Virus record (IMG/VR): IMGVR_UViG_3300044961_000149
Span: 1 to 21,150 of that record
Reading direction: 5' to 3' (one strand)
DNA from: a virus
Length of the DNA: 21,150 nucleotides
This document shows, in pieces, positions 1,754 through 15,114 of the stretch (the first letter of the stretch is position 1; each line of letters opens with the position of its first letter). The position numbers and the translations under genes are program-made. The notes beneath the pieces were generated by a model. It searched no databases. It had not been told where the DNA came from and worked only from the letters and a program-made list of their open reading frames with translations.

Positions 1754-1978
1754 CTACCCATTTGCTAAAGACAAATGGGCTTCGGGTTTCACAGACTTGC
1801 GCTTCTTTACAGAAGTCTTATTTGTGTCTCCACCCGTGTAATCGCCAGTTCCTGACGATATTATTTTTAATCCTTCTTTGAAAATATTCTTTGCGGCATT
1901 AAGGTCACGGTCTAAAACGTGTCCATTCTTGCAAGTCCTGATACTATTCGTGAGTATATCCTCAATCAGGTTAGTCGC
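1754..1978 (-). pseudogene. C-terminal fragment of TnpB (IS605 OrfB)
   Basis: The frame has no start codon and opens after a TAA at 1979-1981. From about 1936 it reads TCKNGHVLDRDLNAAKNIF, then a tail with SSGTGDYTGG and SVKPEAHLSLANG, ending at TAG 1754-1756. DRDLNAAKNI is the last RuvC motif of TnpB, with its catalytic Asp. The C/GH residues before it are the end of the zinc finger, and the KPEA tail is typical of the family. About 300 upstream residues of a normal TnpB are gone. The first 15 or so codons (ATNLIEDILTNSI) do not look like TnpB and probably represent left-end DNA joined by an internal deletion. TnpB is an RNA-guided nuclease that helps its element persist; this copy cannot work. 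Confidence 0.85.
1757..1779 (-). repeat. Right-end hairpin of the IS605 remnant
   Basis: This is a perfect 8-base-pair stem, CCCATTTG facing CAAATGGG, with a 7-base loop. It immediately follows the tnpB stop codon and overlaps the last sense codons. This is where IS605 right-end hairpins, and the 3' scaffold of the omega RNA, normally lie. There is no T-run after it on the minus strand, so it is not an intrinsic terminator for the gene cluster. Confidence 0.8.
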
Positions 1979-3289: not shown

Positions 3290-4243
3290 TTACTTGTTTT
3301 TAGGTTGTGCGTTTACAAATTCTTCTTCTTCTTCTAATGCGTTTACATAATATTCTGCGAATTGTTTTCGCTCTTGAGGCGACAATTTAATGTCTTCTCC
3401 TATTTCTCTCTTGTAAGCGGGACGTACATAATTCTGGTAGTAATATTCCAGTAATTTTATGGCCAAGTCACGGTTATACACGCCTCTTTTCTTCTTAGCT
3501 ACCATGTTTTTAAGGTAATTGTCCATTAATACTTTATATAATCTTCCATCATTATCTGCATAAAGTATTAGTTCTCTTACAGCATCGCTCATTCTATCTT
3601 CCTTTCTAAGCGCTTTTTTGTACTCTTCTCTGACTATCTTTTTTATTGTTTCTCTAACCTTTTTAGCTATTAAGGCTTTTTTTGACTCATTAATTTTTTT
3701 TATTTTAGGTTTTCTAATATTTTCTTGTTGCCAATCTTCGTCTTCATCGTAATCAATCCATCCTTCTTCTTCTGCTACTTCCCAAACTTCCTGAATGAAG
3801 AAGTCTTTTTCTTTTAAATAGAATTCAAGAATGTCCCCCAAAGTATTACAGCGTTTTAGTTCTTTAAGGAAACCTGCTCCGAACCTCTTTACTAGCTCTG
3901 GTTCTACTTCTTTCCATCCAACGTTAAAATCGTTATCTCCTCCGTGCGACCATTGCTTGTTTCCTCCTGAAAGCCAATAAAGAAAATCCTCTATTACTAT
4001 ATTATTCTTATCGGCACTTGTCAATTCTATCTGCTGTATTTCCGGTTCAGATTTATACTCTGAACCTGCTACAATCGCCATGGCCGCTGCTGGGTCTTCC
4101 GTATCATGCCACCATCCGGGCGCATGAAAATCAAAATTTAGCGTGCCTTTTTCCCTTTTTATGATCAATCGAGGGCTGTAAAATAGAGTTTTGTCTTCCG
4201 CACCTTCTTTAAGCGTTCTTTTTTTTGTTCTTTTATAGGTCAT
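3290..4243 (-). CDS. Large conserved-looking phage protein of unknown function
   Basis: The ATG at 4243-4241 is preferred because GGAG lies 5 bases ahead of it. A TTG four codons upstream is in frame but has no such site. The product is 317 residues. The N-terminal part has a Trp/His-rich segment (FDFHAPGWWHDTEDPAAAM). There is an acidic stretch near 160-175 (DYDEDEDW). At 196-212 lies the basic helix VRETIKKIVREEYKKAL. A C-terminal module starting VRELILYADNDGRLYKVLM and continuing KKKRGVYNRDLAIKLLEYYY resembles a helical domain that recurs in many large-phage proteins, as I recall it. No enzyme motif is visible. The gene overlaps the end of the preceding gene by 11 bases. It is likely a head-associated or accessory protein by context only. 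Confidence 0.8.
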   Translation of the reverse strand: MTYKRTKKRTLKEGAEDKTLFYSPRLIIKREKGTLNFDFHAPGWWHDTEDPAAAMAIVAGSEYKSEPEIQQIELTSADKNNIVIEDFLYWLSGGNKQWSHGGDNDFNVGWKEVEPELVKRFGAGFLKELKRCNTLGDILEFYLKEKDFFIQEVWEVAEEEGWIDYDEDEDWQQENIRKPKIKKINESKKALIAKKVRETIKKIVREEYKKALRKEDRMSDAVRELILYADNDGRLYKVLMDNYLKNMVAKKKRGVYNRDLAIKLLEYYYQNYVRPAYKREIGEDIKLSPQERKQFAEYYVNALEEEEEFVNAQPKNK

Positions 4244-4589: not shown

Positions 4590-4882
4590 GGTTTTACCTT
4601 GTTTTTGTGTACTATTGTCCGTAATTTTGTTAAATTCTCATTTAAATTTTCTGTAAAACATCTATCAAAAAGTGTTTTTTCTAATAACAACATTTCATAA
4701 GGAGATTTACAATCCTTTATTATTTCTTTTGTAAAATACTCTCTACCGTACTTATTTATTTCGCGTTTTAAAAATACGCCATTTCCTAAGTAATTATCTT
4801 ATATATTGCTTGTAGCATGACACCCGATGTACGTCTTGCCGTTTATATTATTTGTTGTTTTATATGCTAAATAATGCTTTTT
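4586..4882 (-). pseudogene. Broken GIY-YIG homing endonuclease (Seg-like N-terminal domain)
   Basis: The gap between gp21 and the 118-residue gene is not empty. In one minus frame it reads KKHYLAYKTTNNINGKTYIG, then CHATSNI, a TAA at 4799-4801, then DNYLGNGVFLKREINKYGRE and YFTKEII, ending at TGA 4586-4588. The pattern Y.vYKtTN.iNGK.YIG.H.t...D.YlGSG..lk.AI.KYG...F.keI is the GIY-YIG domain of phage T4 SegA-E type enzymes. The first motif is LAY rather than GIY or VYK, and the YIG is kept. No ATG or other good start is visible, there is one internal stop, and the DNA-binding C-terminal region is missing or very short. This is a free-standing homing endonuclease gene in decay, wedged beside the intein-bearing gp21 gene. 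Confidence 0.82.
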
Positions 4883-4886
4883 TAAA

Positions 4887-6644
4887 TCATATTTTACCGG
4901 GTTTATCTAAACAACACTGTTGTCCAAGTTCGCACAATATCTCCTGCATTATTAAGTTAGCGTTTCGGTATCTTGTGCTTATTTTAGGAGAATAAGATTC
5001 GTGTAGGCCGGGAGCGACCATATTAGCTCCTATCGTTGATTCGTCTGAAACACAGTCAGATAGCGTAACCAATTCAAAGTCGTCCTGAACCTCTACCACT
5101 TCTGAGTCCCCCCCCTCTCTTAAAGGCTCTACTGATCCAAGGCCACGAGAACTTTGCCCAACTCTAAACCCCGCAAGTAAGATGTTTCTTACAATATTTC
5201 CCGATGGCGTTGGCAGTATCTCTACATCCCCGTAAACTTCATTGCCTTTCCAATTTACGTCAACTATTGCGTGACATACATTCTTTAAATTTACTATGTT
5301 TGAATTTCCAGTCCAGTGAGGCAATCCATTATATCTAGTATAAAAAGACCCATTATCAACTGTTACACAATGTACAGTATTATCATAGTCAACTTCTTCT
5401 ATACAAATGAATCTGAAATCCAAATGAATGGCTTTTGATGATTTAAAACATAGCCTATATAGAGTTTTTGAATTTTTTGCTTCTATCAATCTTCCTTCTA
5501 TTAACCTATCTTTAGGTGTCTGCTCTTTTATTACACCAGTTATCCCTAACTTCAACAAAATCTCATTAAAGTCTTCTATCATCTTCTTTGATACTGAAAA
5601 TATAGATTTTCTCTCGTATCCCTTATAAACTGGCTTAGTCTCATCACCAAGTAAATACCAATCAACAAATTCTTGAAGTAATTCTGATGATGCGTTTTTA
5701 ACATCTTTTGGAATATGTTTAGTGTACTTATCTCCTAGTTTTGATAGATATGTCCACAACCTCGCATCACTACACTTAAATATTAAACCTTTTCCATTTT
5801 TTCTCTCTGTTATTGTCCACTCTAATTCGCTTGAAAGTCCACTTATTAAGTTTAAGAACTTATCTGCTTTCTCCCCCTTATTCTGACTTATAAAGATACC
5901 GTAGCCTTTTGTACTATCTATATCAGTTATATGACCCTCTGCAAGATAGAATCCTAAAAATCCAAAAAAACTCTTAGAATCAAGAGTTAGCGGACTTAAA
6001 TATTTACTAATCCAGTTCTTGTTTGTAATATCTATATCTACACCCGGAATTATGTAGTATTTATCAGAAAAATCACCTATCCATTTTTCAGCGGTTATAG
6101 GTATTCTTAAATGTGAATTTTTATTTATTTTACTAATATCATAAATTTCTTGGGCAGTCTTTTCTACAAATTCATTATTCCTATCTAATAGATTGAACCT
6201 ATGGTTTGGTGTAACTACCATATCAATATTACGACCCTTTATGTGAATCATTTTACCTTTATAAGGTTCATTTACAACCCGTTTAACTGGCTGCATTTCT
6301 AATGCGCCTGTCTTAGTGTTTAGTGTTGGTATCTTTTCTCCAACTTCAACATCTTTAAGTAGTTTCCAGCCTGATTCTGTGAGAATTTCTGCTAAGTAAA
6401 ATTCGCATTCGGGATGGTCGAGTTCTCCGAACGCCCTTCTTTCTTTTATCTTATTCTCGTATAACCTTATCTCTCGCTCAAGTATATGTTTAGGATATAC
6501 CCTTTTATTCCTGTTGGGAGAATCAGCCCTTTGCAACAATACGTTCCTAATAATTAACCTTCCGTCATTCTTTTGGATTGACTCTATGAGGGCGGGTTTC
6601 TCTACTCCTATTAAAGCGGTATGTTCTATTAGTAATTGCTTCAT
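4887..6644 (-). CDS. 21: Prohead core protease gp21, intein-containing precursor
   Basis: The frame encodes 585 residues: exteins 1-79 and 448-585 (217 residues spliced, close to the 212 of T4 gp21) around a 368-residue intein. The N-extein ends AFGELDHPE; the His of LDHP (residue 77) is the expected catalytic His of this S-type herpesvirus-like protease family. The C-extein starts SNIVNLKNV and holds VGQSSRGLGSV (495-504), the expected catalytic Ser region. The intein separates these residues, so the protease should be inactive until spliced. gp21 degrades the scaffold and trims gp23 and other head proteins during maturation. The ATG has AAGG 7 bases ahead. A GIY-YIG remnant follows and a frameshifted gene precedes it. 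Confidence 0.94.
   Translation of the reverse strand: MKQLLIEHTALIGVEKPALIESIQKNDGRLIIRNVLLQRADSPNRNKRVYPKHILEREIRLYENKIKERRAFGELDHPECEFYLAEILTESGWKLLKDVEVGEKIPTLNTKTGALEMQPVKRVVNEPYKGKMIHIKGRNIDMVVTPNHRFNLLDRNNEFVEKTAQEIYDISKINKNSHLRIPITAEKWIGDFSDKYYIIPGVDIDITNKNWISKYLSPLTLDSKSFFGFLGFYLAEGHITDIDSTKGYGIFISQNKGEKADKFLNLISGLSSELEWTITERKNGKGLIFKCSDARLWTYLSKLGDKYTKHIPKDVKNASSELLQEFVDWYLLGDETKPVYKGYERKSIFSVSKKMIEDFNEILLKLGITGVIKEQTPKDRLIEGRLIEAKNSKTLYRLCFKSSKAIHLDFRFICIEEVDYDNTVHCVTVDNGSFYTRYNGLPHWTGNSNIVNLKNVCHAIVDVNWKGNEVYGDVEILPTPSGNIVRNILLAGFRVGQSSRGLGSVEPLREGGDSEVVEVQDDFELVTLSDCVSDESTIGANMVAPGLHESYSPKISTRYRNANLIMQEILCELGQQCCLDKPGKI
5304..6407 (-). mobile_element. Intein in gp21 with LAGLIDADG endonuclease (both acids kept)
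   Basis: The intein has 368 residues, from Cys80 to Asn447, followed by Ser448 as the +1 nucleophile. Block A is CEFYLAEILTESGWKLLKDV. Block B has TPNH (145-148). Block F and the end read VHCVTVDNGSFYTRYNG, then LPHWTGN. The penultimate residue is Gly instead of the usual His, a variant I recall from other phage inteins ending in GN/S. LAGLIDADG motif 1 is FLGFYLAEG (acid Glu236); motif 2 is VDWYLLGDE (acid Asp334). Both catalytic acids are therefore present, making this the inset most likely to code for a working homing endonuclease. The insertion point lies 3 residues after the catalytic His. Confidence 0.92.
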
Positions 6645-6708: not shown

Positions 6709-7037
6709 TCATATTTTTTCTACTATTTTAGTGAGTTTTTCCATCAAATCCCCCTCATCGTCATTGTCATAAATCCTATCCCAAAATCCAACACCGTGAT
6801 GATTTCTTTTGATCCGAAAATCATGTTCCAAGTCATTCATAGGTCTAAGTTTTGCAGATATAGCTCAAGGAGTCCTTCTTTTTCTACATCTGCCACAAAA
6901 CTTCCTAAATAGGCTTTTGCCTTCTTTATAGTTTCTGGCCTTAAATCATATATAGAGTAGTTATCATATATATTACCGCCTTTATCATCCGTAGTATACC
7001 ACAAGGCTGTGCCTATATATCTACTGCTATTTCTTAT
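6709..7037 (-). pseudogene. Small phage gene split by a -1 frameshift (GFWDR-type protein)
   Basis: The gap upstream of gp21 holds two overlapping minus frames that together look like one protein. The first (7037-6837, about 66 codons) reads YIGTALWYTTDDKGGNIYDN and SIYDLRPETIKKAKAYLGSF. It ends at TGA 6837-6839. The second (open from 6864, ATG at 6840, stop at 6709-6711) reads DLEHDFRIKRNHHGVGFWDR, then a Leu/Lys helix. Phages widely carry a small protein with .TALW.STDD......Y.I.Di.PE....a followed by HDFWLTRNGHGAGFWDR (recollection, no known function), and the two frames match its two halves in order. The shift must lie in 6837-6864. The first half has no ATG, GTG or TTG; its only candidate start is ATA at 7037-7035, overlapping the preceding TAA. 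Decay, a sequencing error or programmed shifting are all possible. Confidence 0.65.
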
Positions 7038-8828: not shown

Positions 8829-11783
8829 TTAATTAGGAAAATCATCGAGGATATTATCTTCATTCAGCATATTGACCGAGTCAATATTCTTATCTATTTC
8901 TAAAAGGGACTTTTTATTATCTTTATTGTATCTTTTTTCCAACCTTTTTATTAATTTTTCGTAAGATTCTTTGGCAACACTCGGCATTTCTATCTTATCG
9001 TTTTCCCTCCTACCTACGGGGTCTCTTCCAAAATCCTGATCTCTTTTAGTTTCAAAGTTTCCCTTATACTGTGGCGGCTTTCCTTCATTTTCCTCTCTGC
9101 CGTCCGGGGTATATAATTTCTCAATGTCTTCCTGTGATACGGGAAACATCCTACTACTTACTTGTAGGGATGCAATATCCCAAGGAGTTCCAAAAGATTT
9201 CCCAGATACCTGTGGATCATTGCCCTCTTCTGTGATTTGCTTTAGTCTAAAGGTCAGTTTTGCATCTTCTATCCTTCTGTCTATATCTGCTTTCCACTCG
9301 TCTTCGCTCATACCGAATATATTCTCATATATGTATTTTTGAGAAAACACGTTATCTTCTTTAATAGACTTTGCCAAGTCAACCTTTGCTGTCATAACGT
9401 CTGTTTTTTGACGCTCGAACACAAGACTTGGATTAGTCAAGTATATTTCAAATCCAAGCAAATCATCCTCTCTAAACCCTTGAGTATACAAGTGAATTAT
9501 TGCTATTTTATATAATTCTGAAACGAATATCTTCTGTACCCTTTCTACCGTCCTTGCGAACCTTACATCAAGAGATGCCAACCCAGCCTTTGAACTTCCT
9601 CCACTATCTTCTCCGTATCCGAGAAATTCTTTTGGTATCTTTAGTGCAGCCATCATTTTTTTTCTGACGTACTCCACGTCGTCCATAGCGTTCTGGTTTT
9701 GTAGGCCGGGCAACGTCTCTACCGAGTTTCCGCTCTGTCCGCCCCTTACTGGAAGGAACCAATCTTCTATCGCATTCTCAAGGTTATACCTTAAATTGTA
9801 CTCGCCTGTTTGAGGGTCTATGTATGGAGTTTTCTTCATCTCAGACACAATCTGCTCTACGTGAGCATCTACCTCTTCTGGTGCGATGTTTCCTATATCA
9901 ATTTTTACTATACGCCTCTCCGGCGCACGCATTATTCTGTGAAGAAGCACAGCATCTTCAAGTAAGGAAAGCATCTTGTATGACTTTTTAGCAGGCTCTA
10001 TGAAGGAGTTGTGAACTATTATTCCATTTGCAATGAAATTTGAATTGTCTGATTCAACTTGAATATCAAAAGTTTCTTGTGATTCTAATTGTTTTATACT
10101 CTTAACTGGTTTTAAGATTATATTATCAGAAGTAACTCTACTGTATTTTTTTTCTTGTCTTATTTTACTGCCCTCTAAATATATATAAAAATAGTAGCAA
10201 TCAGATTCTGGCAAAAATTTTTCTCTACTTTTTCGTGATAATCGGTGTCTATGTTTTATATTGGATGTTTTAATGTTTATAGTTGATGCTAATATCTTTA
10301 AATCTTGACATAATTCTCTATTAACCAATTCTATTTTATATCTCTTTACCCCATATTTATCTACATTAGTAGAGCCGTCTGCATCTATAAATCCCCTTAT
10401 AAAAGATTCTTTTAATTCTGGTGAAAGTTCAAATACCCAACTTGGAACCCGTTTTGTTTTAGCACCTCCTTTAAGTTCCATGTTGCTTAAAACAGTTGTT
10501 AACATCTTACTTGACACAATACAAGCATTTGGAAGTCCGTTATGTTTTGACTTGCTAAAATATGCAGTTTTACCACTAAACTTTTCAATTAAATTTTTAT
10601 AATAGTTGTTAATTTCTGGATAAACGCCACATGCAAAAGCAACTCTGTCCATAGTTAACCGACCGCCTCCAAGCAAAAACCCAAACAATCTAACAAATTC
10701 AGTATTTACAATATCTGGAACATTATCTATGTTATTTTTACATTCATTTTTATTGACACCATCCACTAAATTTTTATCAATAAAAACATCTCTGGATAAT
10801 GTATTTTTATTAGAATTTAAAACTAATAAATCCCCAACAACTATTTTATTTGCTGGCTTATATTTTAAACTTTCCGATCCCTTGTCAAAACACAGTATTG
10901 GATGTTCTTGTGAACATTTAATTGAATTATTCTGTGTGCATATTTCTATTAAATTCTTTACTCCACTACTAACTTTATTTACAACATAACTTAATTCTAA
11001 TTTATCTGTATTAATGTTATAAGTCCAAACTTTGTCTCCAACTACCACGTTATCAATTGTTTTTACTCCAAATTCCATATCAATATATGAATCTTTGGGC
11101 AGGCAGCGACCGTATGGCAAGTAGTTTGTATCGGTTAGCAACCTAAAATGGGCTATTTCAAATGCCTCAAATTTTTCTTGTGTAGTCCAATAACCTCCAT
11201 CACCGTCATATACAAATTGAACTATATCAGGGTTTTCTTTGTCAAGCCCTTCCTCCCTCCTGATTAGGCTAGGGTGTATAGGCATTACATTAGTTATGCC
11301 AAACTCTTCGTCAATTTGAAGATATAAAAAGTGGTCTCCATATTTACACATTGTCCTTATCCAAGACCACAAGTTAAACTCAATGTTCAGCACATCATAA
11401 AATAAATTATGTAATATCTTCTTTATCTTCTCGTTATCTGTCCTTATTTTTAACAACTGACCGTCTACATCTACTGTAGTGCTTTCTTCTGCTATTAAAT
11501 CAAGGGCAGAGGATATAATAGCATCGCTATCCATAAGTTCATAATCAATGTAAAACATCTTTCTAAGCGACTCTATTTCTTCGTTGGAGGTACTTCCACC
11601 GAATCCGGGGCCATAGCCGCCCATTCTCCCGCTGCGCCATTTAGACCTGTTTGAGTATTTTGTCGGCGATCCGACTGATTGACTCTTGCTAACATCGTAC
11701 GCTTTAAGCCTCCCTCCGGGAAGATGCTTGATAAGCACGTTCTTGGTGAACATGGTTTTTAACCTGTCTCTTATAGTAGCCAT
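8829..11783 (-). CDS. 20: Portal vertex protein gp20, intein-containing precursor
   Basis: The frame encodes 984 residues. The exteins (1-226 and 593-984, 618 residues spliced) match T4-type gp20, somewhat longer than T4's 524. The N-extein has LRKMFYIDYELMDSDAIISS and IRTMCKYGDHFLYLQIDEEF. The C-extein has SFIEPAKKSYKMLSLLEDAV, ERRIVKIDIGNI, KIPKEFLGYGEDSGGSSKAG and LASLDVRFARTVERVQ, all hallmarks of the family. gp20 forms the dodecameric ring at one head vertex that starts head assembly, docks the terminase and joins the tail. The join TNYLPYGR/SFIEPAKKS restores the usual sequence once the 366-residue intein is removed. The ATG has AGGAGA 7 bases ahead and lies inside the end of gp17 (13-base overlap). 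The extra C-terminal tail is Lys/Asp/Glu-rich. Confidence 0.95.
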   Translation of the reverse strand: MATIRDRLKTMFTKNVLIKHLPGGRLKAYDVSKSQSVGSPTKYSNRSKWRSGRMGGYGPGFGGSTSNEEIESLRKMFYIDYELMDSDAIISSALDLIAEESTTVDVDGQLLKIRTDNEKIKKILHNLFYDVLNIEFNLWSWIRTMCKYGDHFLYLQIDEEFGITNVMPIHPSLIRREEGLDKENPDIVQFVYDGDGGYWTTQEKFEAFEIAHFRLLTDTNYLPYGRCLPKDSYIDMEFGVKTIDNVVVGDKVWTYNINTDKLELSYVVNKVSSGVKNLIEICTQNNSIKCSQEHPILCFDKGSESLKYKPANKIVVGDLLVLNSNKNTLSRDVFIDKNLVDGVNKNECKNNIDNVPDIVNTEFVRLFGFLLGGGRLTMDRVAFACGVYPEINNYYKNLIEKFSGKTAYFSKSKHNGLPNACIVSSKMLTTVLSNMELKGGAKTKRVPSWVFELSPELKESFIRGFIDADGSTNVDKYGVKRYKIELVNRELCQDLKILASTINIKTSNIKHRHRLSRKSREKFLPESDCYYFYIYLEGSKIRQEKKYSRVTSDNIILKPVKSIKQLESQETFDIQVESDNSNFIANGIIVHNSFIEPAKKSYKMLSLLEDAVLLHRIMRAPERRIVKIDIGNIAPEEVDAHVEQIVSEMKKTPYIDPQTGEYNLRYNLENAIEDWFLPVRGGQSGNSVETLPGLQNQNAMDDVEYVRKKMMAALKIPKEFLGYGEDSGGSSKAGLASLDVRFARTVERVQKIFVSELYKIAIIHLYTQGFREDDLLGFEIYLTNPSLVFERQKTDVMTAKVDLAKSIKEDNVFSQKYIYENIFGMSEDEWKADIDRRIEDAKLTFRLKQITEEGNDPQVSGKSFGTPWDIASLQVSSRMFPVSQEDIEKLYTPDGREENEGKPPQYKGNFETKRDQDFGRDPVGRRENDKIEMPSVAKESYEKLIKRLEKRYNKDNKKSLLEIDKNIDSVNMLNEDNILDDFPN
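10008..11105 (-). mobile_element. Intein in gp20 with LAGLIDADG endonuclease (first acid lost)
   Basis: The intein has 366 residues, from Cys227 to Asn592, with Ser593 as +1. Block A is CLPKDSYIDMEFGVKTIDNV, followed by VGDKVWTYN. Block B reads KCSQEHPIL (Ser in the place of the usual Thr, His kept). Block F and the end read TFDIQVESDNSNFIANGIIV then HN, with the standard His-Asn. LAGLIDADG motif 1 is LFGFLLGGG, where the catalytic acid position is Gly373 (GGC, one transition from GAC). Motif 2 is IRGFIDADG with Asp469 intact. Splicing should be normal; cleavage of DNA is doubtful. Confidence 0.93.
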
Positions 11784-14467
11784 TTAAGATTCTCCTTTTG
11801 TCCTCTCACATCCATTTGCCATTTGTCTGCTCCAATAGGTTGTGGTTTGTAAACTGATTTGTGTGTATTTCTTATTGCATTTTTAATAAGTTCTATGCCC
11901 ATTTGCCTCATTCTTAGGGCAGTGTCTCTTATGTACATTCCCATAGCCCAGCACATAACCAAGTCGTCGGTTTTTCCTCTCTGTGCCTGCGGTTTTCCAT
12001 CATGCCATACGAAAACTCGCAACTCGTTCATAAATCTCTTTGAGTATATTATAGGGGTTCTTTCCCGAAAATACATCTCTAATTTTGATACAAAAACTGG
12101 CCTCAACCTTGTAGTTGTGGTTAATCCGGGTATCATATCCTCTTTGTTCTTTAGATCATAGTTCTTTCTTAAATGTATATTTTCATCAAGATAAGGGTCA
12201 TTTTTGTAAGAATAGTACAGGTTTTTATACCCTAAATCTAAGGCTACTTGAACTGTGCTCCAACCAACGTTTTTGTTGTCTATAACAAGCAAAGCATTAC
12301 CATACTCAGTAGCAACCGCAACCCCCATTCTTCCAAAAGACTGCGTATCAATCTTACCTCTATACTCTGCTACTTGCTCACAAGTTTCTACATCTATAAC
12401 CTGCATACCTGAGTTATCTTCTCCATCTCCACGAGCGGGGTCAAGTACAACAATGTAGTCTTTTATAGGGTCTGGGTACTTCCAAATCCAAAGGTCTCCT
12501 TCTACCCCTCTTTTTTCTAAAGGTTCTATGGTCTTTGCGTCATACTCTGCAAGTATGTCCGCTTCTATTACAGTGTGACCAGAGGTTAAAAAATCGCAAT
12601 CACAATTATGAACAACACCATGTTCTGTTATATAAGTGTGATCCTCATATACTTCTAAATTATATACCTTGACATCTTCTACAACACCTTCACTAATAAT
12701 TAGTCTGTTTTTAACATCACAAGAATATGAATTTTTAAAACTATAGGGAATATTTTTATTCCTTTTATAAGATAAATAGTAAGATTCTCTTATATTTACT
12801 ATCCTGCCTTCTATTGTTTCAACACCTGCTGTCTTTACCCTTCTTATTGATGTGTTTTTTATATTCAATAAATCTGAAATTGACTTTAAATCGTACAATA
12901 GTTCTAAGGACACTGTTGTTGATGTTTTTTTATACTTCTCTAACAGACACCCATCCCCTTGCAAATACCCTTCTAATATCCCTTTAAAAAAATTATAATT
13001 TCCATAAATATATGTGTTTTTAGATAATTTCTTTGTTGAGGATGAAGTACCTTCTACAAAAAAGTCAATAAAACCTGATATTATTGTGCTTGATATAGAT
13101 ATTTGTCCTGTGTTTTTTCCCGTAACCCTATCGTTAATCGGCGATTGTCCAAATAGTTTATTTAGTTTTTCAAACAGGTCTAATTTCCACTTGTTTAGTT
13201 CATGTTCTGCATTGCAACTAATTATCAATCTTGTTCGTGTTTTAGAACCTTTTGCCAAATATAGCCCAATCAAATGACCGGATTCCCAATCTATTGGGAT
13301 GTATCTAAAATATTCTTTTTTATGCCTTCTGTCATTTATGTAAAATCTATTAGCATCTTCTGTTAGTTTTTTCTTAAAGAATACAGGACTTAACACATCG
13401 TATAAATCCAAAATACTCGTAGAACTTTTAATTTCAAAATCAGGCAAATTACACAACACATGTTCATTATTAAAATCTCCAACATTTACCCACCCATTAT
13501 CAGTTAAAAACGGGTGATTTTTAGTAACAAAGGATTTTTTTAACCTGTTATTTGAACTATATAATTCTACACAATTATTAGATATATGACTCATAACCCT
13601 TACCACAGGTCTTAGTCTGCCTTTGTGAGTAAACACTAATTCGCCTATTCTTATGTCCTTTATACACTTATATCCAGTCTCAGTCAGCACTCTGGTATCT
13701 CCATCAAAACATTCCTGAGCTGCTTGTCTCTTTCCTAACAAATGGTCATAACCGTCTCTCCACTTCTGATCTCGTTCTGGGTGCAAATACCAAGGTAGTT
13801 TTATTGGATTAAATGCTTCTATACCATCAGCAACACCTTCTTCTGCTTTTACCCAAAGGTCGTGGAACGTGTTTCCTGTTCCGTTCGGTGTTGATAGTAT
13901 TATACATTTACCGCCTGTTGCTAATGTCATCTGCGCTGATGTCCATATAGCTTCAGAAGACTCTACGAACGCGAACTCATCACAAATTAACAGTGACAAG
14001 GACGCTGAACGTGCAGCATCAGGTGAACTTGATACTGCTTTGATTGAACTTCCGTTGCTGAACACAAGACTTAACTTGTTTTTGTTTACTATTGACAAGC
14101 CTCCTTGCTTTAGAAAGTTTGGAAGCAGCTCGAACATCAACTGAACCTTTTCTACAAGGCTCTTGGCTACTTCTTGTGTGGTTGCTATTACCAATATTTT
14201 ATAGTCGTCATTGAACATCATCTCATGTAGGGCATACCCTGCTGTTAATGTGCTTATGCCCATCTGTCGAGACTTTAAAATTATGTTATACCTGTTCCGT
14301 TGAAGTTGGTATAAAGTTTCCTCTTGGAAAGGATACAAGTCAAATAATATCTTTCCTTTCTTAGGGTGCGAAATCTTTGCGTATTTCTTAAAGAAATAAA
14401 CTGGATCGGTACCGCACTTTAAGAACTCGTCTTTTACTATCTGTCTTAAATTATCTGGGGCTTCTAT
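11771..14467 (-). CDS. 17: Terminase large subunit gp17, intein-containing precursor; no ATG start
   Basis: gp17 is the ATPase-nuclease motor that packages DNA through the portal. Numbered from an ATA at 14467-14465, the precursor has 898 residues (529 after splicing). Residues 2-43 (EAPDNLRQIVKDEFLKCGTD, then PVYFFKKYAKISHPKKG) continue into LYPFQEETLY as in gp17 homologues, so this region belongs to the gene. The Walker A variant SRQMGIST is at 66-73, Walker B LLICDEF at 159-165, and the coupling motif STPNG follows. Nuclease acids appear as VLDPARG (Asp676), VIDNKN (Asp730, where T4 has Glu) and GKTDDLV. An in-frame TGA sits directly upstream and no ATG, GTG or CTG exists before it. The first common start is a TTG at 14338-14336, which would remove 43 conserved residues and has a poor ribosome site. 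AGAGGA lies 7 bases before the ATA. Confidence 0.93.
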   Translation of the reverse strand: MEAPDNLRQIVKDEFLKCGTDPVYFFKKYAKISHPKKGKILFDLYPFQEETLYQLQRNRYNIILKSRQMGISTLTAGYALHEMMFNDDYKILVIATTQEVAKSLVEKVQLMFELLPNFLKQGGLSIVNKNKLSLVFSNGSSIKAVSSSPDAARSASLSLLICDEFAFVESSEAIWTSAQMTLATGGKCIILSTPNGTGNTFHDLWVKAEEGVADGIEAFNPIKLPWYLHPERDQKWRDGYDHLLGKRQAAQECFDGDTRVLTETGYKCIKDIRIGELVFTHKGRLRPVVRVMSHISNNCVELYSSNNRLKKSFVTKNHPFLTDNGWVNVGDFNNEHVLCNLPDFEIKSSTSILDLYDVLSPVFFKKKLTEDANRFYINDRRHKKEYFRYIPIDWESGHLIGLYLAKGSKTRTRLIISCNAEHELNKWKLDLFEKLNKLFGQSPINDRVTGKNTGQISISSTIISGFIDFFVEGTSSSTKKLSKNTYIYGNYNFFKGILEGYLQGDGCLLEKYKKTSTTVSLELLYDLKSISDLLNIKNTSIRRVKTAGVETIEGRIVNIRESYYLSYKRNKNIPYSFKNSYSCDVKNRLIISEGVVEDVKVYNLEVYEDHTYITEHGVVHNCDCDFLTSGHTVIEADILAEYDAKTIEPLEKRGVEGDLWIWKYPDPIKDYIVVLDPARGDGEDNSGMQVIDVETCEQVAEYRGKIDTQSFGRMGVAVATEYGNALLVIDNKNVGWSTVQVALDLGYKNLYYSYKNDPYLDENIHLRKNYDLKNKEDMIPGLTTTTRLRPVFVSKLEMYFRERTPIIYSKRFMNELRVFVWHDGKPQAQRGKTDDLVMCWAMGMYIRDTALRMRQMGIELIKNAIRNTHKSVYKPQPIGADKWQMDVRGQKENLKWLL
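12605..13711 (-). mobile_element. Intein in gp17 with LAGLIDADG endonuclease (first acid lost)
   Basis: The intein has 369 residues, beginning at Cys (13711-13709) after AAQE and ending at Asn (12605-12607) before CDCDF. Block A is CFDGDTRVLTETGYKCIKDI. Block B has VTKNHPFLTDNGW (TxxH). Block F and the end read VYNLEVYEDHTYITEHGVVH then N, with Cys as +1. LAGLIDADG motif 1 is LIGLYLAKG, where the usual Glu/Asp is Lys (AAA, one transition from GAA). Motif 2 is LEGYLQGDG with the Asp kept. Removing the intein joins AAQE to CDCDFLTSG, the normal gp17 sequence that follows the ATPase domain. Splicing looks intact, while DNA cleavage is doubtful. Confidence 0.94.
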
Positions 14468-15114
14468 AGCTCATTCCTCTTTGTTTCAAATTGCTCAAGA
14501 GTCCTCTTCTTAAACTCTGCATATTGTTCATCAATCATCTTTTTATAAGACTCAGGGTCTTGAAAACTCCACTTTTCAACAACATTATTATTGTCAGTTT
14601 CATCCCCTGCAAAGTTGATGTTCATTATTTCTCTTTTTAGTACTTCCACCTCTACATCTGCTTGTTTAAAGAAAGATTCCGCATTTGCCTTCATCTTATT
14701 TAAGGCATATTCGTTGAACTTTCCTTTAATTTTCAATGAAGTTTCGTAAGAAATAAGGCACTCCTCACACATTCCTGCAATTATTCTAAATTTTTCATCA
14801 AGTCTTGTAGGATTATGACAAGTACATTGTTCTTTTGGGCAATTAGGGAAAGAGCGTAGCCAAGTTCTCGTATCTTGCATCATTTTATTTACGCTCGGAT
14901 GTACGTTTGTCTTTACTCTGTAACCTTCAAACTGTTCATACCATGTACTATTTCCGTGTATGTCTTTGACTTCCCATATCTCCCCAACCTCCCTTTTTTT
15001 ATTGCGCTCTGCGGTCGCAGCAACATCAGAAAATCCGATAGTAGTTCTGGTTTGTGTTCTGTGAGTTCCAGCAAGCATCTCGTTGATTGCTTTTATGTTT
15101 TTTAGTTTGCTCAT
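14464..15114 (-). CDS. Zinc-ribbon protein upstream of gp17 (possible small terminase or packaging factor)
   Basis: This 216-residue protein starts MSKLKNIKAINEMLAGTHRT. The middle has VGEIWEVKDIHGNSTWYEQF and EGYRVK. A Cys cluster at 92-119 (Cys92, Cys97, Cys99, Cys116, Cys119; CPKEQCTCHN and MCEEC) looks like a zinc ribbon. The C-terminal 95 residues are helical and charged, with probable coiled coil. I recall similar zinc-bearing proteins next to gp17 in other T4-like phages, without a proven role. In T4 the gene before gp17 is gp16, the small terminase, but I see no clear gp16 likeness, so that reading rests on position. The ATG follows AGGA closely. The stop (TAG) overlaps the proposed ATA start of gp17 as ATAG. 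Confidence 0.78.
   Translation of the reverse strand: MSKLKNIKAINEMLAGTHRTQTRTTIGFSDVAATAERNKKREVGEIWEVKDIHGNSTWYEQFEGYRVKTNVHPSVNKMMQDTRTWLRSFPNCPKEQCTCHNPTRLDEKFRIIAGMCEECLISYETSLKIKGKFNEYALNKMKANAESFFKQADVEVEVLKREIMNINFAGDETDNNNVVEKWSFQDPESYKKMIDEQYAEFKKRTLEQFETKRNEL

Follow-up and report, generated by a model that had tools for sequence, protein, structure and literature searches.

A probable AUA start codon on the large terminase gene gp17 of a T4-like phage lineage

In the 21,150-nucleotide stretch of viral DNA analysed here (the window), gp17, the essential gene for the packaging motor, lacks a normal start codon; its most probable start is AUA. We consider it very likely that the gene is translated from AUA 14467-14465, positioned by a Shine-Dalgarno site, with an fMet start at a rate limited by IF3. 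The gene product matches Pfam Terminase_6N (3e-11; the terminase ATPase domain is present) and PHROG 5989 (terminase large subunit, 3.1e-44). It belongs to the same protein family as gp17 of T4 and lies in a T4-like neighbourhood of terminase, portal, prohead protease and major head genes; it differs from T4 gp17 in that it contains an intein, and the surveyed homologues outside its clade nearly all start with ATG. The features discussed are listed in the table.

Features of the gp17 region in the window
Feature	Position	Strand	Remarks
gp17, T4-type large terminase	11771..14467	-	898 codons + stop, intein inside; Terminase_6N and PHROG matches
ATA, proposed gp17 start codon	14465..14467	-	column of L307 ATG and L312/L085 TTG; ATA in L003, ATC in L002
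TTG, first NTG of gp17 frame	14336..14338	-	rejected as start; inside LYPFQ motif
AGAGGA, predicted Shine-Dalgarno site	14475..14480	-	7 nt ahead of ATA; GAGGA-N7-AT[AC] in window, L003 and L002
Upstream gene, 216 aa, in position of small terminase	14464..15114	-	neighbour and homologue in L002, L003, L307
ATG AGC TAT AGA AGC CCC AGA TAA (MSYRSPR*)	14451..14474	-	relic C-terminal frame of upstream gene

On the minus strand the gp17 junction reads AAAGAGGA ATGAGCT ATA GAA GCC CCA GAT AAT TTA AGA; the full junction, from the upstream gene into gp17, is GAAACAAAGAGGAATGAGCTATAGAAGCCCCAGATAATTTAAGACAG. The gp17 frame is shut by TGA 14473-14471, which is followed by GCT, by the ATA and then by EAPDNLRQIVKDEF. 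Past this TGA the first NTG codon in frame is TTG 14338, with no ATG, GTG or TTG before it. Reading of the minus strand confirmed the original prediction that gp17 has no ATG and that its frame is closed by TGA. The upstream gene ends in ETKRNEL*, its stop codon TAG 14466-14464 overlapping the ATA as ATAG. No match to this 216-aa gene was found in Pfam or PHROG, so a role as small terminase is suggested by its position only.

TTG is a recognised start codon, and TTG 14338 or some other internal codon could in principle be the gp17 start, leaving the part upstream untranslated. We regard this as highly improbable. Comparison of codons 2-43 of the window with those of L002, one of the two closest relatives, showed 5, 4 and 17 differing sites at codon positions 1, 2 and 3, respectively, with dN at 0.067, dS saturated and synonymous differences in 17 codons. 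Judged by this pattern, codons 2-43, ahead of TTG 14338, are coding and under protein-level constraint, in agreement with the earlier claim that the frame is coding upstream of the TTG. A start there would remove 43 residues that are conserved in the relatives, its Shine-Dalgarno sequence is 12 nt off, and the TTG itself lies within LYPFQ, a motif of the conserved domain without variation among the closest homologues. An ATA at codon 10 was also considered as the start and rejected, as the conserved NLR motif would be lost.

The closest relatives, L002 (84% identical) and L003 (83%), carry the gene pair as in the window and encode terminase proteins of 532 and 531 aa, respectively, without an intein. 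In L003 a TGA stands one codon ahead of the ATA, as it does in the window, and consequently no start further upstream is possible in either. L002 has ATC in the column of the window's ATA. The aligned starts are IEAPDNLR (window, ATA), ISNQTNLR (L003, ATA), IENQNNLR (L002, ATC), MSDQSNLR (L307, ATG), LSEPTNLR (L312, TTG) and LSKQENLR (L085, TTG); the ATG of L307 and the TTG codons of L312 and L085 align with the window's ATA without gaps, while the ATG of L308 falls one residue later and the TTG of L004 four earlier. The alignment of gp17 N-termini proposed in the original prediction therefore places the ATA in the column of the homologues' start codons, with agreement in N-terminal length.

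In 108 of 116 distinct loci the conserved NLR motif is preceded by an ATG at a distance of at most 16 codons. Among the 116, the only untruncated loci without one were the window strain, L002, L003, L004 and L085. In the phylogenetic tree the window, L002 and L003 form a group (100/99) within an eight-member clade (99/94), and the AUH start is carried by these three divergent phages only, all of one clade. A nucleotide search of phage records gave no match, a scan of genome contigs yielded only two distant relatives, and a loose DNA pattern (Shine-Dalgarno plus ATH) run over viral contigs was unspecific and added no member to the clade. In the wider clade, L004, L085 and L312 have TTG starts for gp17 with the upstream gene approximately 375-910 nt away, showing that weak starts occur without gene overlap.

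The predicted Shine-Dalgarno site is preserved together with the weak codon. GAGGA stands exactly 7 nt before ATA, ATA and ATC in the window, L003 and L002 (3/3). The motif GAGGA-N7-ATH is not rare by itself, with three occurrences on the window's minus strand; what raises it above chance is its conservation among homologues. Duplex energies with an assumed anti-Shine-Dalgarno sequence were -6.0 (window), -8.6 (L003) and -5.8 kcal/mol (L002). The window's value is ordinary among its genes, most of which start with ATG and two with GTG, and the site is not extended; that of L003 is stronger. In L002, in-frame TTG codons lying 7 and 10 codons before the ATC are possible alternative starts, though with a weak Shine-Dalgarno sequence (-2.9 vs -5.8 for the ATC).

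Both the AGAGGA 7 bases before the ATA and the ATAG overlap with the previous stop, as originally described, are seen in the sequence. The overlap is not kept in the relatives: in L002 and L003 the upstream gene stops approximately 17 nt beyond the gp17 start, which indicates that what is conserved is not the geometry of coupling but the Shine-Dalgarno site with a weak codon. An indel shifts the frame of the upstream gene, yet GAGGA-N7-AT[AC] is kept, so GAGGA is conserved as nucleotides and not as upstream protein. Taken together, the alignment column, the N-terminal length, the Shine-Dalgarno site and the non-ATG codon in the relatives agree with ATA as the gp17 start, the first of the two possibilities raised in the original prediction.

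The second possibility was ATG 14474, which opens only MSYRSPR before a stop. Ribosomes might begin there and enter the gp17 frame by a programmed +1 shift at AAGCCCCAGA; the ATG is present, and CCC-A permits slippage of tRNA-Pro in principle. However, AGAGGA directly abuts this ATG (spacing 0), and the codon in its place is GTG in L003 and CTT in L002, which makes the ATG a product of chance. A conserved slippery site with an upstream start in another frame was not found, as L002 lacks both the CCC and an NTG and L003 lacks the CCC, and the CCCC run is absent from both. Moreover, the third frame of the window, RGMSYRSPR*, corresponds residue for residue to RGVSHKQPD* in L003 and RGLNYRKSK* in L002, with equal length and matching stops. 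This comparison identifies the MSYRSPR frame as a relic of the ancestral C-terminus of the upstream gene and not a start of gp17, and the ATG frame is thereby accounted for. The ETKRNEL* ending probably arose when 1 nt was inserted ahead of GAGGA in the lineage of the window, an event that left the relic frame behind, the direction of the indel being drawn from two relatives against one. The chances of the frameshift are, in our estimate, very slight.

Removal of one base from the CCCC run would likewise join the two frames, and a base error or mis-assembly could therefore conceal a true start at ATG 14474. A second contig recovered in the viral-contig scan (L001/G001) has a junction identical to that of the window. 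The two differ by 9 mismatches over the shared 17,378 nt (99.95% identical), and their DNA similarity ends sharply around window position 3773; these differences show that the second contig was assembled separately, from a close strain, and a shared error at the CCCC is unlikely. The relatives have no ATG at this place either, and L003 has no other NTG start. A base-call error is accordingly most improbable. Both the frameshift and the error, as originally suggested, fall with the relic frame, the absence of CCC from both relatives and the lack of an NTG at this position in L002.

A reassigned genetic code (ATA read as Met) was rejected: the other internal ATA codons of gp17 align mostly with I or V, indicating that the code is standard. 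In the proposed mechanism, AGAGGA 7 nt upstream would set the 30S subunit onto the AUA, where the initiator tRNA (CAU) would pair with A and U. Because the third base is mismatched, the protein would start with fMet at a low rate, held down by IF3, whose behaviour in the host is assumed. Since the TAG overlaps the ATA, coupling is also possible, and ribosomes ending the upstream gene there may contribute re-initiation at the AUA. No RNA structure signal was found around the start (z 0.15, -0.02 and -0.98), and no phage-encoded initiator tRNA was present in the contigs examined, the only tRNA being tRNA-Arg(CCT) in a 122-kb relative.

AUA, AUC and AUU are known to pair at two positions with the initiator tRNA and to be discriminated by IF3 (PMC5472188). 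The infC gene starts with AUU in E. coli and ATC in Streptomyces (PMC5472188) and with AUA in S. aureus (PMC13009471); as in gp17, the start is a non-NTG AUH codon whose third base drifts across species while AU stays (PMC5472188, PMC13009471). The autoregulation of infC by way of IF3 is a loop that does not exist for a phage terminase. In S. aureus, expression from AUA or AUU starts was about 10% of that from AUG in poor medium, and up to 30% for ccpN in rich medium; the AUA starts of infC and ccpN have a strong Shine-Dalgarno sequence and yield approximately 10-30% of AUG in reporters, and the AUH starts of ccpN and cvfC1 are conserved (PMC13009471). The starts of ccpN and citZ (AUA) and cvfC1 (AUU) thus resemble that of gp17 in combining AUH with Shine-Dalgarno support, at a yield of approximately 10-30% of AUG (PMC13009471), but they belong to bacterial chromosomal genes and were tested experimentally. 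Streptomyces sigR (GTC) offers a weak start in a co-transcribed coupled pair that sets the protein ratio under IF3 (PMC5472188); it differs in being GUC rather than AUH and in belonging to a host stress regulator. From the pairing and IF3 facts and the infC and ccpN precedents we infer low-rate fMet initiation at the AUA.

Our literature searches, which covered mostly open papers, turned up no earlier AUA start in a phage gene, a terminase included; as evidence of novelty this is weak. The gp17 AUA is therefore a known kind of start, apparently unreported for a phage terminase in the literature searched. Overall, gp17 presents a real case of a start codon that is both non-canonical and conserved, in a phage gene that is essential; the mechanism is ordinary, the place unusual. 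Gene callers accept ATG, GTG and TTG only, and consequently such a gene would be annotated 43 residues short or broken.

A very weak start, AUA or AUC in the two nearest relatives, suggests that gp17 is translated at a low level, whether by design or through tolerance. One substitution, A/C to G, would be enough to give AUG, yet AUH is kept in 3/3 phages with saturated synonymous divergence. That this path is unused suggests that selection favours low synthesis of gp17, as judged from only three lineages, of which L002 might use its upstream TTG. We propose, tentatively and at less than even chances, that the AUA/AUC start acts, through discrimination by IF3 and coupling to the upstream gene, as a fixed throttle on the large terminase of this phage lineage. 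Tolerated neutral drift of a true ATA start without a regulatory role, a reading that concerns regulation and not the start site, is to us just as possible; the confinement to one clade, the lack of associated RNA structure and the variable overlap geometry speak for it, and the retention of AUH speaks against it. If the throttle is real, motor subunits would be few relative to procapsids, or would be made late, upon a change in the fidelity of host initiation. The conservation of AUH at the start of an essential gene suggests that weak-start control of the infC type is available to phages as well, and gp17 offers a small, testable system for the control of packaging-motor dosage at the level of translation.

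Several other features of the window were noted. Inteins occur in three head and packaging genes, the large terminase, the portal (gp20, 8829-11783) and the prohead protease (gp21, 4887-6644), all on the minus strand; the terminase intein is missing from L002 and L003, as it is from the other relatives examined. At 6712-7031 (minus strand) a small gene is seemingly split over two frames, the first running from YIGTALWYTTDDKGG to LELYLQNLDL and the second being AISAKLRPMNDLEHDF. It has no obvious NTG start, is identical in the contig of the sister strain and is possibly a decaying gene. A 74-codon open stretch at 1757-1978 (minus strand) resembles by eye the C-terminal end of a TnpB-like protein (CKNGHVLDRDLNAAKN); 1749-1938, covering part of it, is found again, at 97.9%, at another place in the contig of the sister strain. 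The open stretch at 4592-4798 (minus strand) looks by eye like part of a homing endonuclease of the GIY-YIG type.
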